Below, in pieces: positions 11,587-30,788 of a stretch of 51,737 nt of DNA. The notes under the pieces are model-generated. The model did no database searches and was not told the DNA's origin. It saw only the letters and a list, made by a program, of their open reading frames with translations. The position numbers were made by a program, and so were the translations under genes. Each line of letters begins with the position of its first letter. Positions within the stretch are counted from its first letter, which is position 1. Origin of the DNA: a virus. The DNA lies in the IMG/VR virus record IMGVR_UViG_3300005589_000740, positions 1-51,737 of that record; one strand, given 5' to 3'.

Positions 11587-12141
11587 ATGATCGAGCATCA
11601 AAGATTCGTGTATTTCATGCGCCCGGTGAATGCTCAGGGTCCGGTGAAAATCGGCACGTCCACACACCCAGTTGCCCGCCTTGAGCACTATGCGAAATGG
11701 TCGCCGCTCAAACTGGAAATCGTCGCAACGGTCGATGGTGGCTGGAAGCTTGAATCTCGCCTTCACGGGCTGTTTGCCGATCTCCACAGCCATCACGAAT
11801 GGTTCGCCGGGTCGGCGCGTATCGACGCGGTCATCAACGCGATCAATGCGGGAAGCTTCGACGCAAGCTCTTTGCCAGAACCTTTGAGCGTTCGGGACCC
11901 CGCTGGCGCGTTTACACGCATCCTTCGTGGCCTTAGCCATCGGCTTGTTCACCTGCCGCAGCCGCCAGACGAGGTGGGGCGTGCAGTGGACCGTCTTCGC
12001 AATCACCTGACGATGGGTGACTACCATCCGCAAGCAGATGTTCGGTTGGTTTGGGAATACCTTGAAAAGGTTGCCCCGCGCCCCAAGGCCAAGACTCGCC
12101 CGTTGGTCGAGCGTTTCTTGACCCAAAAGGACGCGGCCTAA
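11587..12141 (+). CDS. GIY-YIG (T5orf172/MUG113-like) nuclease-family protein
   Basis: A 184-residue protein with an N-terminal GIY-YIG-type fold: RFVYFMRP (residues 6-13), GPVKIGTSTHPVARLEHY (18-35), and LESRLHGLFADLHSHHEWF (55-73) with E56, H60 and W72. The C-terminal half is unassigned. It starts directly after the Cro-like stop. Members of this family occur as stand-alone phage nucleases or joined to regulators. Activity is not proven by sequence. Confidence 0.75.
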   Translation: MIEHQRFVYFMRPVNAQGPVKIGTSTHPVARLEHYAKWSPLKLEIVATVDGGWKLESRLHGLFADLHSHHEWFAGSARIDAVINAINAGSFDASSLPEPLSVRDPAGAFTRILRGLSHRLVHLPQPPDEVGRAVDRLRNHLTMGDYHPQADVRLVWEYLEKVAPRPKAKTRPLVERFLTQKDAA

Positions 12142-12805: not shown

Positions 12806-13336
12806 ATGACCAAGATCAGGAAGCCCGGAACGTTTGAAAGCGCGTCTGTGGCGCTGCGAGATCATTTCCGCATCGAAGGGTGCGCGGCAATCATCGGCAT
12901 GACCGAGGGCCGGGTGCGTCACGCCTGCGACAGCGATCGGTCGAGCTATACGCCCTACACCCTCTCGCAGGCTCTCGACCTGGACGTTGCCTATTTCGAG
13001 AGCACGGGTCGGCCCGGCCCGCTTGGGGCGGTCTACGGCCAGCTCTATCGCGACCGCACCGGGCAGGGCGCCTCTGCTTGCGACATGTCAGCCCTTGAGC
13101 GCGTCGGCCATATCTCTGGCGAGCTCAATGACGTGGTGCAGACCATCACGGCATCGACCAATCCGGACAGTGATGGCGGGGAAACCGAGACGCCGGCGGA
13201 ATGCTTGCAGACCGTTCGCGAGATCGATGAAGCCATTGCCGAGTTGAGCCGCCACCGCGCCAGCTATGCCCGCAAGGCCGGTATCTCTCCGAATGTCCGC
13301 CCGTCGGCTGTCGTCAAGATGATGGGGGCTGCGTGA
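12806..13336 (+). CDS. CII-like phage regulatory protein
   Basis: A 176-residue protein. Residues 15-65 read as an HTH unit (HFRIEGCAAIIGMTEGRVRH, YTLSQALDLDVAYFE) and the C-terminal half is helical with a Ser/Thr/Glu linker. Size and place (downstream of Cro, ahead of replication genes) suggest a CII-type activator or another middle regulator. Family assignment is tentative. Confidence 0.6.
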   Translation: MTKIRKPGTFESASVALRDHFRIEGCAAIIGMTEGRVRHACDSDRSSYTPYTLSQALDLDVAYFESTGRPGPLGAVYGQLYRDRTGQGASACDMSALERVGHISGELNDVVQTITASTNPDSDGGETETPAECLQTVREIDEAIAELSRHRASYARKAGISPNVRPSAVVKMMGAA

Positions 13337-13500
13337 TGCCCCATCCCAACCCTCACCCCATCGCAATGGAGCCGGCCCGCGCTGCGGCCCGTGAGCGCTG
13401 GATACGCGCGCAAAAGGGCCAGCGCAAAGCCCGCTGGAAAGACCTGCGCGACGTCACCACGGAAGCCCTGATCTGGAACCGGGAGGCGCGTAATGGCTAA
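13336..13500 (+). CDS. Small basic protein
   Basis: A 54-residue protein (MPHPNPHPIAMEPARAAARE...) rich in Arg, Lys and Trp. Its ATG overlaps the upstream stop (TGATG), and its 3' end overlaps the HNH gene start by eight bases. A nucleic-acid-binding role is plausible from composition only. Confidence 0.6.
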   Translation: MPHPNPHPIAMEPARAAARERWIRAQKGQRKARWKDLRDVTTEALIWNREARNG

Positions 13501-13873
13501 TCGCCGCAAGCTCACAAAGCGCCAGAAGGCTGATCTGTTCCTCCAGCACAACGGGCAGTGTGCTGAATGCGGGTCAAAGCTCTCTCTTGGCGAAGTCGAG
13601 TGGGATCACGTCAAAGAACGCCGCATGGCCGTTGATGAAAACGATGCTGCCGAGCGCGAAGAGCTGACCAATTTTCAACCGCTGTGCGAGTGTTGCCACG
13701 CGGCCAAAACCGCCGAGTGGTCCGGTATCCACGCGAAAGCTGAACGCCAAGGCGGTCGCGGCGGTAGCCAGTACGCGCGCCGGGCCAAGGGCAAGACCAA
13801 ATCCATCCCATCGCCGGTCAACCAATGGCCCCCGAAAGGCTCTCGCAAGCTGCAAAGCCGGGGGCTCGCATGA
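13493..13873 (+). CDS. HNH endonuclease
   Basis: A 126-residue HNH nuclease. C23-x2-C26 and C65...C68-H69 form a zinc site around the catalytic D38-H39 (VEWDHVKERR) and N60 (LTNFQPLC), with K72 following (CHAAKTAEW). The C-terminus is basic (RRAKGKTKS). It is coupled by ATGA to the DNA methyltransferase gene, so it could be a nuclease partner of that enzyme or a packaging/homing nuclease. Confidence 0.85.
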   Translation: MANRRKLTKRQKADLFLQHNGQCAECGSKLSLGEVEWDHVKERRMAVDENDAAEREELTNFQPLCECCHAAKTAEWSGIHAKAERQGGRGGSQYARRAKGKTKSIPSPVNQWPPKGSRKLQSRGLA

Positions 13874-14589
13874 GCTATCAGCGCAAGGAAGTTATCGGAG
13901 ACTGCACGCTGTATCAGGGTGATTGCCTTGAGGTGATGCCGACGCTTGGCGAGTTTGATGCTGTGGTGACTGATCCGCCTTATGGGATTGGGTTTGTGCA
14001 TAGCGGAAATGCTGGACCATCGGGGAAGTGGGGCGGGCGTCACACAGAAAAAATTCTTGGTGATGATGAGCAATTCGACCCATCACCGTTTCTGTCGATG
14101 CCGTGCTTGATGTTCGGCGGCGATCACTTCGCATCGGCCCTGCCAAGCGGCGGCGTGTTTCATGTTTGGGATAAGGAATGCGGCCGCACCAATCGATACG
14201 ACAGCTTCTCAGATGCGGAAATTATGTGGTGCAGCCTGCCCGGTAAGCGGCAAGTGTTTCGTTATATGTGGAAGGGGCTGCAGGTCGAAGAGCCGCAGAT
14301 TGACCAGAGGCGTCAGCACCCGACGCAAAAGCCTGTTGCGGCAATGCGCTGGTGTCTTGGCTTCGTCCCCAACGCCGAAACCATCCTAGACCCCTTCATG
14401 GGTAGCGGCACCACTGGCGTTGCTTGCGTCAACCTTGGCCGGAAGTTCACCGGCATCGAGCTGGACCCCGGCTATTTCGACATCGCGTGTCGGCGGATCG
14501 AAGAGGCCTACAAGCAGCCGCGTCTGTTCGAGGAACCAGCGCCGAAGCCGGTGCAGGAACGTATCAGCTTTGATGGGGATGCCGCATGA
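13870..14589 (+). CDS. DNA methyltransferase, beta class (N6-adenine or N4-cytosine)
   Basis: A 239-residue S-adenosylmethionine-dependent DNA methyltransferase. Motif IV DPPYG (residues 35-39) precedes the C-terminal HPTQKP (150-155) and the AdoMet-binding FMGSGTTG (176-183) followed by GIELDP, which is the beta-class order. It lacks the long C-terminal domain of CcrM. Start ATG 13870 overlaps the HNH stop; an upstream frame extension is rejected. It may protect phage DNA or alter promoter methylation; the target site cannot be read from sequence. Confidence 0.9.
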   Translation: MSYQRKEVIGDCTLYQGDCLEVMPTLGEFDAVVTDPPYGIGFVHSGNAGPSGKWGGRHTEKILGDDEQFDPSPFLSMPCLMFGGDHFASALPSGGVFHVWDKECGRTNRYDSFSDAEIMWCSLPGKRQVFRYMWKGLQVEEPQIDQRRQHPTQKPVAAMRWCLGFVPNAETILDPFMGSGTTGVACVNLGRKFTGIELDPGYFDIACRRIEEAYKQPRLFEEPAPKPVQERISFDGDAA

Positions 14590-14711
14590 ACGCCCCCATT
14601 CCACCCTTCAAATGCCAGACCTGCGGTAAGCCCGCTCGATACGGGTTCAACGTGTCGATGCGCTCGCGTGGATCCTGGTTCTGTCCCCAACACAAGCCGG
14701 AGGGCCGGTGA
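14586..14711 (+). CDS. Small zinc-finger-like protein
   Basis: A 41-residue protein with CQTCGKPARY and, near the end, FCPQHKPEG: a Cys-x2-Cys...Cys-x2-His arrangement fit to hold one zinc. It overlaps the methyltransferase stop (ATGA) and is linked to the GcrA-like start by TGATG, so the three are translated together. Confidence 0.68.
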   Translation: MNAPIPPFKCQTCGKPARYGFNVSMRSRGSWFCPQHKPEGR

Positions 14712-15289
14712 TGAGAGCTTTGATTGACTGGACACCAGAGCGCGTGGAGCAGCTTTTCGAGATGTGGAAAGCTGGACACTCTGCCGCCCATGTCGCGAAG
14801 GCAATGGGCCTGCCTAGCCGCAGCGCGGTAATTGGCAAATGGCACCGCATGGGCTGGACCAGCGCGCACCCGGACGCCCCGGAGCGTACCAAAGACATGA
14901 TCGCCGCCCGTGGAACCCGGACACGCATCGCCGGTGGCGGCAAGAGGGCAAATCAAAACCCGGTCGGCCCGCGTGGGTCTGGTCGCGCGCCCGTGGTTCA
15001 CCAGACAGTCAAGAGCCAGCTCAAGTCAGGGTCGGCAATCTTCCCGATCCAGATGAACCCGACGCGGTTTATTGACCTCGAGCGCGACCAGTGCCGGTTC
15101 CCGATTGACGACGTGAACGCACCTGGGACCGCTGAGACGCTTTTCTGCGGCGCCAAGCAGAAAGACGTCTCGTCATACTGCGAGCATCACCATGCCCGCT
15201 GCATGACCCCCTACAAGCGCCGGAAGAAGCCATTGGACCGCAGCAAGATTGCCGCGCGTGATCGGTTCGTGTTCGGGGTGGCAGCATGA
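14711..15289 (+). CDS. gcrA: GcrA-family cell-cycle regulator
   Basis: A 192-residue GcrA homologue. The N-terminal HTH (residues 6-50: WTPERVEQLFEMWKAGHSAA, then SRSAVIGKWHRMGW) is the hallmark of the family. The C-terminal sigma-interacting domain shows CRFPID (C128), LFCGAK (C146) and YCEHH (C157, H160). In alphaproteobacteria GcrA binds sigma70 domain 2 and stimulates promoters with methylated GANTC sites. A phage copy beside a DNA methyltransferase could redirect host or phage transcription. ATG 14711 is preferred to a GTG one codon upstream. Confidence 0.88.
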   Translation: MRALIDWTPERVEQLFEMWKAGHSAAHVAKAMGLPSRSAVIGKWHRMGWTSAHPDAPERTKDMIAARGTRTRIAGGGKRANQNPVGPRGSGRAPVVHQTVKSQLKSGSAIFPIQMNPTRFIDLERDQCRFPIDDVNAPGTAETLFCGAKQKDVSSYCEHHHARCMTPYKRRKKPLDRSKIAARDRFVFGVAA

Positions 15290-15543: not shown

Positions 15544-15784
15544 CGCAGCCCTGTTGACTCGCCAGAGTGCAGAGATCGCCGACCGCCACGCCGAGCAGAT
15601 CCGCGCCTATTGGGCAGAGCGAGGCTATGAGATCGAAACCCGCATTTTCCAGATCGGTTTCCAGGAAAAAACCCGCTGCGTTCCTTCCTGCGTGCGGAGC
15701 AACATGCAGAACGGCCTTCCCCGTGGATACCGGGCGCCGTCACGCCTCGACCGTCTCCGCAAACAGCGGGGGCATGTGTCATGA
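15530..15784 (+). CDS. Unknown small protein
   Basis: An 84-residue basic protein with one long N-terminal helix (SAEIADRHAEQIRAYWAERG) and a basic end (APSRLDRLRKQRGH). It overlaps both neighbours. Not recognised. Confidence 0.62.
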   Translation: MTAPSAALLTRQSAEIADRHAEQIRAYWAERGYEIETRIFQIGFQEKTRCVPSCVRSNMQNGLPRGYRAPSRLDRLRKQRGHVS

Positions 15785-16296
15785 GCCAGCAGCGAAAAAA
15801 GGCGATTGACGATTGCGGCAACGGGGACCGTTTGCCGCCGCTTCTGAGTTGCGCGAAGCGCTTCATGGAGAAGGTTGAGGTTGACCCCCATACTGGGTGT
15901 TGGGTTTGGACCGCAAGTCGGACGCCAGGTGGGTACGGGCAGATTGGTGTGGGTAGCAAGTACGATGGCACCCGTCGCTTGGCCGTTGCGCATCGTGTCG
16001 CTTATGAGCTTTTCCGAGCGGAGATCGAAGATGGGTTGCAGATTGATCATCTGTGCCGAAATAGGGCCTGTGTGAACCCCGCACATTTAGAGCCTGTGAC
16101 TCAGGCGGAAAACATACGCCGTGGGGATGGTGGGCGACACTGGGCGCAAAAAACGCATTGCCCGAAAGGTCACCCGTATTCGGAAGAGAACACCTACATC
16201 TATCGGGGGAGTAGGTTCTGTAGGGAGTGTTCGCGGATTGCTAGTCGCGAGGCTTACCGCAAGCAAAAAATGGGGGTGCGCCCCAATGCTTCCTAA
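15781..16296 (+). CDS. HNH homing-type endonuclease
   Basis: A 171-residue HNH protein of the kind common as free-standing phage homing endonucleases. CWVWT (40-44) is followed by AHRVAYELF, the core QIDHLCRNRACVNPAHLEPV (D89-H90, N99, H102), and a C-terminal zinc ribbon (C127, H131, C147, C150). Its DNA looks less GC-rich and has different codon use from its neighbours, suggesting recent acquisition. The 3' end overlaps the helicase start by 11 bp. Confidence 0.85.
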   Translation: MSQQRKKAIDDCGNGDRLPPLLSCAKRFMEKVEVDPHTGCWVWTASRTPGGYGQIGVGSKYDGTRRLAVAHRVAYELFRAEIEDGLQIDHLCRNRACVNPAHLEPVTQAENIRRGDGGRHWAQKTHCPKGHPYSEENTYIYRGSRFCRECSRIASREAYRKQKMGVRPNAS

Positions 16297-17653
16297 CGTG
16301 TCAGAGCATGTCTATGAAGCCGAGAGCGGTTTGCCGCAGAACGTGTCTGCCGAACAAGCCATCCTTGGTGCCCTCCTGTACGACAACGCGACCTATCACC
16401 GGATCGCAGACTGGCTCAAGCCAGAGCATTTCCATGACCCGGTTCACGCCCGCATCTTCGAGGCCATCGGCGACCAGATCGGAATCGGCAATCTGTGCGA
16501 CCCGATCACCCTGAAAGCCAAGCTCGAACAGGATGACGGCCTCGCACAAATCGGCGGGACCGCGTATCTGGTCGAATTGGTTCAATCCGCTCCCCTGACC
16601 AGCAATGCCGCGGTCGAATACGGCCGCATCGTCGCCGAGCTCGCTTTGCGCCGGGCCCTTATCCGCGTTTCGAATCAAATGGGGTATGCGGCCAGACAGG
16701 ATTCCGAAGATACCGCGTCCGCGCTGATCGAAGAGGCGGAAGCCAGCCTTGCCGCTCTCACGGATACCGAGGAAGGCGAGACGGAGTGCACCGCCGGCCA
16801 AGCACTTCGCGCCGCCCTGGACCAGCCCCTGACCTTCATCGAGACGGGATTGCGCGGCTTTGACGACATGCGGACCATATCGCCCGCCCTGATCATCGTC
16901 GGAGCTCGCAGTTCTATGGGCAAGAGCGCCATCGTGGCTGACCAGGTGCTGCGCTCTGCCCGCAACGGCAAGCCGTCCCTGATGCTCTCCAATGAGATGA
17001 CCGCTCGCCAGATCGCGGCCAGATGGGCGGCAAGCATGACCGGCGTCCCGTATTTCGCGATCACCAACGGCACCATGCACCGGGACCAGCGTGATCGAGT
17101 CGCGCAATGCATCGCTGAGATCGAAGCGTTGCCAATCACGATCATCGATTGCCCGGGCATTGGCATTTCCGGTCTGCGTTCACGGATTCGCCGCTGGCTT
17201 CGCAAAGTCGAGAAGTCAGGGCAAGAGCCGGGCGTTGTCGGCCTTGACTATCTCCAGAACATATCAGGACCGGGTAGCGGCCTCTACGAGCGCACCAGCG
17301 ACATCGCGCTCGGTTTGCAGACCATCCAGCTCACATTCGGTATCTGCCTTCTGGTGGCCTGTCAGCTTGCCCGTGCTGCCGAGCATGAGAAAGACAAACG
17401 CCCGTCGATCCGCCACCTGCGAGACAGCGGGAAGATCGAGGAGGTCGCAGACAAGATCCTGCTGGTCTACCGGGACAGCTATTACGCCGAGCGCGAGCCG
17501 GAGGAATCCGACGCCGCGAAGGAACACGAGCGCCGGGAACGCGCCGCGTCGAAGCTGGTCGAGATCGACCTCGCAAAGAACCGCCTTGGCCCGCTCGGCA
17601 AGATCAAACTCGCGGGCGACATGGCCTGCAATCACTTTGAGGATTGGGGCTGA
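16286..17653 (+). CDS. dnaB: Replicative DNA helicase, DnaB family
   Basis: A 455-residue helicase. The N-terminal domain (NVSAEQAILGALLYDNATYH onward) is followed by a RecA-type ATPase with Walker A GARSSMGKSA (206-215), SNEM (235-238), Walker B VVGLDYLQ (D321), QLARAAE and RHLRDSGKIEEVAD. It would unwind DNA at the phage fork as a hexamer. ATG 16286 is chosen because it aligns with the conserved DnaB start; upstream in-frame sequence covers the HNH gene. Confidence 0.93.
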   Translation: MLPNVSEHVYEAESGLPQNVSAEQAILGALLYDNATYHRIADWLKPEHFHDPVHARIFEAIGDQIGIGNLCDPITLKAKLEQDDGLAQIGGTAYLVELVQSAPLTSNAAVEYGRIVAELALRRALIRVSNQMGYAARQDSEDTASALIEEAEASLAALTDTEEGETECTAGQALRAALDQPLTFIETGLRGFDDMRTISPALIIVGARSSMGKSAIVADQVLRSARNGKPSLMLSNEMTARQIAARWAASMTGVPYFAITNGTMHRDQRDRVAQCIAEIEALPITIIDCPGIGISGLRSRIRRWLRKVEKSGQEPGVVGLDYLQNISGPGSGLYERTSDIALGLQTIQLTFGICLLVACQLARAAEHEKDKRPSIRHLRDSGKIEEVADKILLVYRDSYYAEREPEESDAAKEHERRERAASKLVEIDLAKNRLGPLGKIKLAGDMACNHFEDWG

Positions 17654-30174: not shown

Positions 30175-30788
30175 TCTTGATTACGGGTTGCGCCCGATCG
30201 CGCACGTCCATGACCACCGCGATGCTGCAAGCGTGCGGCGCCAATCTTGGCCGCCCCGCTGATGTGAACACGCTGTATGAAAACCTCTCCGTTCGGCAGA
30301 CCATCCTGAAGCCCATGATCTCGCGTTTTGGCGGCGATCCGCTGGGCCAGACGCATTTTCCCAACGCTAACGCGGTTAAACCCGTCGAGGGGTTGAAATT
30401 CCGGGCGCTGGACGCGCTTGGCGGGCCTCGCGCGGACCTTGCCTACAAAGACGCCAAACTGTCCCTTGTGTGGCAATCCTGGGCTGATGCATTCCCCGAA
30501 GCGAAATGGGTAATCGTGCGCCGGCCTCGCGAGGGCATCATTGATAGCTGCATCCGCACCCACTTCATGCGGGCCTATGGCGACAGCCGGGCCGGGTGGG
30601 GCTCTTGGGTGGATGCGCAGGTTGCCCGCTTTGACGCCATGAAGGCGGCGGGGCTGGACCTGATCGAAATCGACACGGACGCGCTTGTTGCTGACCCGGG
30701 CTTGTTCGAGCCGGTCGCGGCGCATTGTGGACTGGAATTTGACCGGGCGGCGGTTGCTGCCTGTATCAGACCGAGGGCGCGAGGATGA
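30171..30788 (+). CDS. Sulfotransferase-like P-loop protein
   Basis: A 205-residue protein with the PAPS-binding 5'-phosphosulfate loop at the N-terminus (ILITGCARSRTSMTTAMLQA) and a 3'-phosphate-binding-type segment (KWVIVRRPREGIIDSCIRTH). Late residues (LDLIEIDTDALVADPGLFEP) are also usual in bacterial sulfotransferase-family proteins. It would transfer sulfate to a sugar or other hydroxyl. ATGA-coupled upstream and four bases overlapped with the protease gene downstream. Confidence 0.78.
   Translation: MILITGCARSRTSMTTAMLQACGANLGRPADVNTLYENLSVRQTILKPMISRFGGDPLGQTHFPNANAVKPVEGLKFRALDALGGPRADLAYKDAKLSLVWQSWADAFPEAKWVIVRRPREGIIDSCIRTHFMRAYGDSRAGWGSWVDAQVARFDAMKAAGLDLIEIDTDALVADPGLFEPVAAHCGLEFDRAAVAACIRPRARG

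Follow-up and report, generated by a model that had tools for sequence, protein, structure and literature searches.

The window analyzed here, an IMG/VR virus record of 51,737 bases, carries a gene for a DNA methyltransferase and, closely downstream in the same operon, a gene for a homologue of GcrA. In Caulobacter crescentus, GcrA binds sigma2 and recruits the polymerase to methylated promoters (PMC7403470). This arrangement raises the question of whether the phage encodes a compact, self-contained pair of a writer and a reader of methylation, as an earlier note on this DNA had proposed, or two genes that occupy one operon independently. Judging from its gene content, the record derives from a temperate siphophage: an integrase gene lies at the left end, the minus strand encodes a RecE-like exonuclease, an Erf-like annealing protein and a CI-like repressor, and the plus strand carries a replication operon and, after it, the genes for terminase, portal, head and tail. 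A megablast search of the structural region against 50,697 phage records returned nothing, and the large terminase shares about 41% identity with those of proteobacterial phages (a Rhodobacter phage being listed first); this phage thus has no close sequenced relative. In genome contigs, a GcrA search found no relative of its GcrA subtype, and a methyltransferase scan found no close alphaproteobacterial relative.

The locus (13870-15289) is part of the replication module, and the methyltransferase gene, a 41-aa ORF and the GcrA gene were all located at the coordinates given previously. Their translational chaining was also confirmed, in that start-stop overlaps of the form ATGA or TGATG join neighboring genes; the methyltransferase gene overlaps by ATGA both the 41-aa ORF and an HNH endonuclease gene upstream. 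The ORF (14586-14711, plus strand) is rich in Cys and His and contains a CxxC...CxxH pattern that may represent a zinc ribbon. It had been described as a small zinc-finger protein; the ORF and its CxxC and CxxH motifs are present, but the ORF has no match in Pfam or PHROG, so that ‘zinc finger’ describes a pattern and not a family.

The GcrA homologue (14711-15289, plus strand; alternative GTG start at 14708) is 192 aa long when read from its ATG, and shows the layout of an N-terminal helix-turn-helix (HTH) DNA-binding domain, a disordered linker and a C-terminal sigma-interacting domain. It matched PF07750 with 87.7 bits against a cut-off of 26.9, over profile positions 2-151 of 155 and thus over both domains. 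The best sequence match in the PDB was C. crescentus GcrA (7ye1, E 1e-11), with 5yiu also found, and the five best PDB matches of the AlphaFold model were all GcrA chains (7ye1, 5yiv and 5yix). The DNA-binding domain corresponds closely to 5yiv, a structure on methylated DNA (TM 0.91 by target, rmsd 1.0), and 5yix_B, which is bound to sigma2, was among the top Foldseek matches for the sigma-interacting domain (TM 0.60 by target, E 0.16), a domain with a conserved Cys/His pattern in the GcrA alignment. The linker and tail were modelled poorly, as is expected for a disordered linker. Pfam, PDB sequence and fold matches thus all bear out the presence of both GcrA domains. Given its score of 76.5 bits against a cut-off of 280 for NF050816, the profile of the cellular equivalog, the phage protein is to be classed by sequence as a homologue of GcrA rather than as the cellular equivalog. 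A second PF07750 match in the window (30275-30556, minus strand) is weak, below cut-off and interrupted by an internal stop codon, and is probably due to chance. We also observed GcrA-like proteins with several HTH modules followed by one C-terminal sigma-interacting-like domain, namely L033:2291-3277 (plus strand; three PF07750 matches, perhaps four HTH modules by eye) and L020:2232-3110 (plus strand; two HTH modules by eye); a GcrA with multiple readers would be unusual.

The methyltransferase gene (13870-14589, plus strand; ATG at 13870, stop codon at 14587-14589) encodes an orphan amino-methyltransferase of 239 aa. Its identification as a beta-class enzyme held up, and it is of the N6/N4 type: DPPYG (motif IV) precedes FMGSG (motif I), PF01555 is matched with 72 bits, and the AlphaFold model (mean pLDDT 81.5, weak at residues 41-64 and 135-149) has a methyltransferase fold. 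Structural comparison with CcrM and GcrA, which had been suggested as a check, thus led the GcrA model to GcrA chains and the methyltransferase model to CcrM as top match (6pbd), with M1.HpyAVI (5hfj) also among its best. At the sequence level, the enzyme scored 62 bits against the curated cut-off of 830 for NF050803, the NCBIfam CcrM equivalog, and the match spans only positions 181-272 of 350. It was also correct that the CcrM C-terminal domain is missing, since the protein ends at 239 aa and nothing matches beyond profile position 272.

We then compared the locus with the seven nearest loci that carry the same GcrA subtype, of which L003-L008 were sampled by GcrA and L100 by DnaB. GcrA is present in all eight phages of the group, the DnaB-sampled L100 included, and in the closest relatives a DnaB-like gene is kept downstream of it. 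In the window this gene, an ORF identified as a replicative helicase by sequence reading, lies at 16289-17653 (plus strand, approximate start), and its region shows DNA identities of 92% in L097 and 89% in L098. The position before GcrA is variable: it holds a RusA-like resolvase gene in L003, L004 and L007 (a label that rests on sequence reading, the Pfam search having given no match), and a VRR nuclease gene in L008, whereas in L005, L006 and L100 the HNH gene is directly followed by the small ORF or by GcrA. The methyltransferase is missing beside GcrA in six of the seven relatives; several of these records are fragments, so that the absence concerns the GcrA-adjacent position. Conserved adjacency in related phages had been proposed as a check, and the pair occurs together at this locus in only one of seven, L008 (same contig as L053), where the methyltransferase follows GcrA in the opposite order.

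The methyltransferase cassette is bordered by CGCATGA at both ends, and its replacement can be followed at the DNA level. In the empty state of L006/L097, window positions 13324-13873 (90% identity) and 14583-15289 (72%) correspond to two stretches that lie side by side with a 7-base overlap, and in L100 the gene is cleanly absent between the HNH gene and the small ORF, which precedes GcrA there as it does in L003 and L006. Where the methyltransferase is absent, an identical ATGA connects RusA or HNH genes with the small ORF or GcrA; in L003 and L004, for example, it couples the RusA gene that fills the slot to the gene that follows. Since ATGA also joins other genes in this way, the coupling is not evidence of partnership, and the overlap structure reflects cassette exchange within an operon. 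Because cassettes are exchanged at these very seams, finding a methyltransferase coupled to GcrA in a phage operon provides little evidence for a common epigenetic circuit. The operon also encodes two HNH endonucleases (13493-13873 and 15781-16296) and a GIY-YIG/T5orf172-like protein (11587-12141), which lie at or near the borders of the variable slots. A mixed arrangement of cassettes was seen in L017:111-2368, where three genes stand in a row: GcrA, a gene resembling C5 methylases (about 40% identity to its RHph_Y1_10 counterpart), and a beta-class methyltransferase.

The upstream border of the slot is the HNH endonuclease gene of 126 aa (13493-13873, plus strand; PF01844 with 24.8 bits and PHROG HNH families). 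Its ATGA overlap with the methyltransferase might be taken to indicate a restriction-modification unit composed of the two. However, the HNH gene is kept with about 90% DNA identity in L097/L006, which lack the methyltransferase, a state that would be lethal if the HNH protein were the cognate restriction enzyme, and other relatives carry different HNH genes at this position. We therefore consider such a unit very improbable.

We also asked how the two genes are associated across viral sequences in general. Of the 50 best methyltransferase records, 11 carry a GcrA above the Pfam cut-off (15 at E<=1e-3), mostly within 0-4 kb and on the same strand, and none of 30 more distant methyltransferase records does so. 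In the other direction, two of 14 viral GcrA records match the window methyltransferase, one of them only over a catalytic fragment, and PF01555 was found in two of 22 GcrA records (0/8 among annotated phages). On a tree of the methyltransferase catalytic ends, the label ‘has GcrA’ requires 9 changes, as compared with 8.7 for shuffled labels. Probing viral contigs with DnaB, RusA, HNH and portal for an unbiased 2x2 sample yielded at most five loci each, too few for a baseline rate of GcrA in alphaproteobacterial phages. As far as these sequences indicate, the two genes share the replication modules of alphaproteobacterial phages and are not co-inherited, and it is this common residence that would account for the frequency of GcrA near the enzyme family. 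The figure of 11/50 nevertheless speaks against independence of the two genes, and a modest enrichment of GcrA near the methyltransferase may exist.

These results bear directly on the proposal of a self-contained epigenetic switch, in which the phage methyltransferase writes a mark, at GANTC or a private site, that the phage GcrA reads. The direct adjacency with start-stop overlaps speaks for it, as does the second contact between GcrA and the same enzyme family in L008/L053, within the same phage group and in reversed order. Against it, GcrA stands without the enzyme in six of the seven relatives, the presence of one gene does not predict that of the other across phages, and the two GcrA-adjacent enzymes have unrelated middle, target-recognizing modules. 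The compact pair envisaged by the earlier note is thus mostly unsupported, and we regard such a switch as improbable.

The divergence of the middle module was then characterized. At the DNA level, the window methyltransferase and that of L053/L008 are 90% identical over 13868-13995 and 85% identical over 14385-14590, with no similarity between these segments; the conserved ends start and stop at the ATGA seams. At the amino acid level, the ends of the window and L008 enzymes are 88% and 84% identical, whereas the middle (aa 41-145) is 15% identical. The exchanged module thus corresponds to 13996-14384 (plus strand; about aa 41-145 plus margins), with borders after motif IV and up to the HPTQKP motif, and contains the target-recognition region. 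In beta-class enzymes, the order of the motifs places motifs V-VIII and the target-recognition region in this middle part. Among 33 aligned relatives the ends are about 66-70% identical and the middle about 25%, and the ten GcrA-linked methyltransferases, with averages of 70% and 24%, do not share a fixed target-recognition module either. Near-constant ends around a highly divergent middle were seen throughout the short beta-class phage methyltransferases (window 13873-14586, L017-L068), and the abrupt borders in the window/L053 pair point to a possible system for swapping methylation specificity. When searched alone, the middle module matched nothing in the PDB and retrieved only weak relatives from phages, with uncharacterized specificity. 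If the enzyme were the writer for GcrA, its recognition module would be predicted to be the most constrained part; it is the least constrained, which by sequence comparison counts against that role.

GcrA shows a different distribution of constraint. Its best conserved part is the sigma-interacting domain, at 80-93% in the five closest relatives, and in four of them the DNA-binding domain falls to 50-60%. Given that both this domain and the methyltransferase middle vary, a co-varying code is conceivable: the two would be exchanged together, so that each GcrA reads only the mark of its own enzyme, against a constant background of catalytic ends and sigma-binding domain. However, the GcrA DNA-binding domain is equally variable in phages without the methyltransferase, which also argues against a self-contained switch, and we consider a private code per phage highly improbable. 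That phage GcrA proteins combine a strongly conserved sigma-binding domain with variable DNA-binding domains is itself a testable finding.

Next, we examined GANTC sites. The window contains 63, as compared with 142 expected from its own sub-words (observed/expected 0.45), and no other among the 16 palindromes of this form is as strongly depleted. The ratio is 0.39 in close relatives and 0.84 in mostly non-alphaproteobacterial contigs; among methyltransferase loci it is 0.54 with GcrA and 0.53 without. We suggest that such a depletion agrees with an alphaproteobacterial host in which GANTC is already methylated by CcrM, in which case the phage GcrA would need no writer of its own. Near-total loss of GANTC, far exceeding the general depletion, was observed in L104 (Rhizobium phage RHph_X2_24; 1 site versus 24 expected in 10.2 kb) and in L026, L027 and L029 (0 sites versus 16, 9 and 13 expected). 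Within the window, no GANTC occurs between 12438 and 15556, the GcrA region included, or in the cI-cro intergenic region. Sites are present before the terminase genes, and because they are not conserved in L004/L005, we assign no target promoter to the phage GcrA. A search for sigma70-like promoters across 11.1-21.5 kb returned one weak site, fewer than in shuffled sequences.

The depletion, together with CcrM being the top fold match, could also suggest host mimicry, in which the enzyme methylates GANTC as CcrM does and maintains the mark on phage DNA during replication, for use by the GcrA of host and phage. There is precedent in Sinorhizobium and Paracoccus prophage methyltransferases, which methylate GANTC and so mimic CcrM, and which sit in alphaproteobacterial phage replication modules (PMC5537653). 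However, these enzymes carry NPPW/F/Y where the window enzyme carries DPPY, the sequence likeness to CcrM is confined to the common catalytic C-terminal part, and the middle module differs among relatives. In Rhizobium phage 16-3, p097 is the same kind of short DPPY beta-class enzyme (43% identity over 92%), and it directly adjoins the NPPF-type methyltransferase p096, which suggests that the two types have separate jobs. Host mimicry thus seems unlikely, if somewhat less so than a self-contained switch. In this phage (L102, 5375-6678), p096 overlaps the start of p097, placing two different orphan methyltransferases in tandem; unlike in the window, no GcrA is annotated nearby and none was found in the 12.6 kb read.

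We favor, at a probability of roughly two in three, the explanation that the locus consists of two independent parts of a replication operon: a stable GcrA, serving as sigma70 cofactor at sites methylated by the host, and an exchangeable anti-restriction methyltransferase cassette. The conserved C-terminal domain of the phage GcrA most likely contacts sigma2 in the primary sigma factor of the host, and the variable HTH would bind promoter DNA, so that DNA targets may differ between phages. The protein would read GANTC methylation made by host CcrM and bring RNA polymerase to phage and/or host promoters. The link between promoters and methylation state that had been proposed is plausible by this route. 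The methyltransferase, an ATGA-bounded cassette whose middle, target-recognizing module is itself exchanged between phages, most likely methylates phage DNA at a phage-variable site, and this would allow escape from host restriction; as no restriction system was identified, this role is drawn from the swap pattern. Short orphan beta-class methyltransferases with swapped recognition modules are in this respect likely to give rise to new methylation specificities among alphaproteobacterial phages.

In a limited literature search, we came across no publication describing GcrA and a methyltransferase that share a phage operon, and none describing module swapping in this group of short beta-class enzymes. 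Phage GcrA, phage GANTC methyltransferases, and orphan methyltransferases in alphaproteobacterial phage replication modules are each already known separately. Compared with C. crescentus GcrA, the window protein has the same HTH, disordered linker and sigma-interacting domain; its DNA-binding domain is 52% identical, but its sigma-interacting domain only 27%, and it differs in an extra conserved C-terminal tail (...RFVFGVAA) and in being encoded in a phage replication operon. The control of phage genes by GcrA has a precedent in Brevundimonas subvibrioides, in which a prophage-like structural operon is expressed GcrA-dependently (PMC7987155). Phage-encoded GcrA was reported in 2012 in phiCbK-like Caulobacter phages (gp222; PMC3556154) and is also annotated in rhizobial and other phages. 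Like the window protein, gp222 and the proteins of the rhizobial phages RHph_Y1_10 and RHph_X2_30 contain PF07750 and possibly steer host or phage transcription, but they have no adjoining PF01555 methyltransferase, and neither has any of the eight annotated GcrA phage records. RHph_Y1_10 instead carries a C5-type methylase and RusA near GcrA. We had considered its ‘DNA methylase’ as a GANTC enzyme and dropped it, several relatives being annotated as C5 cytosine methylases. With CcrM (6pbd), the GANTC-specific beta-class enzyme, the window methyltransferase shares the common fold and catalytic motifs, but it lacks the C-terminal domain and its target-recognition segment bears no similarity to that of CcrM. 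The published GANTC phage methyltransferases (PMC5537653) are likewise orphans in alphaproteobacterial phage replication modules; they are unrelated to CcrM in sequence, whereas the window enzyme is a DPPY beta-class methyltransferase.
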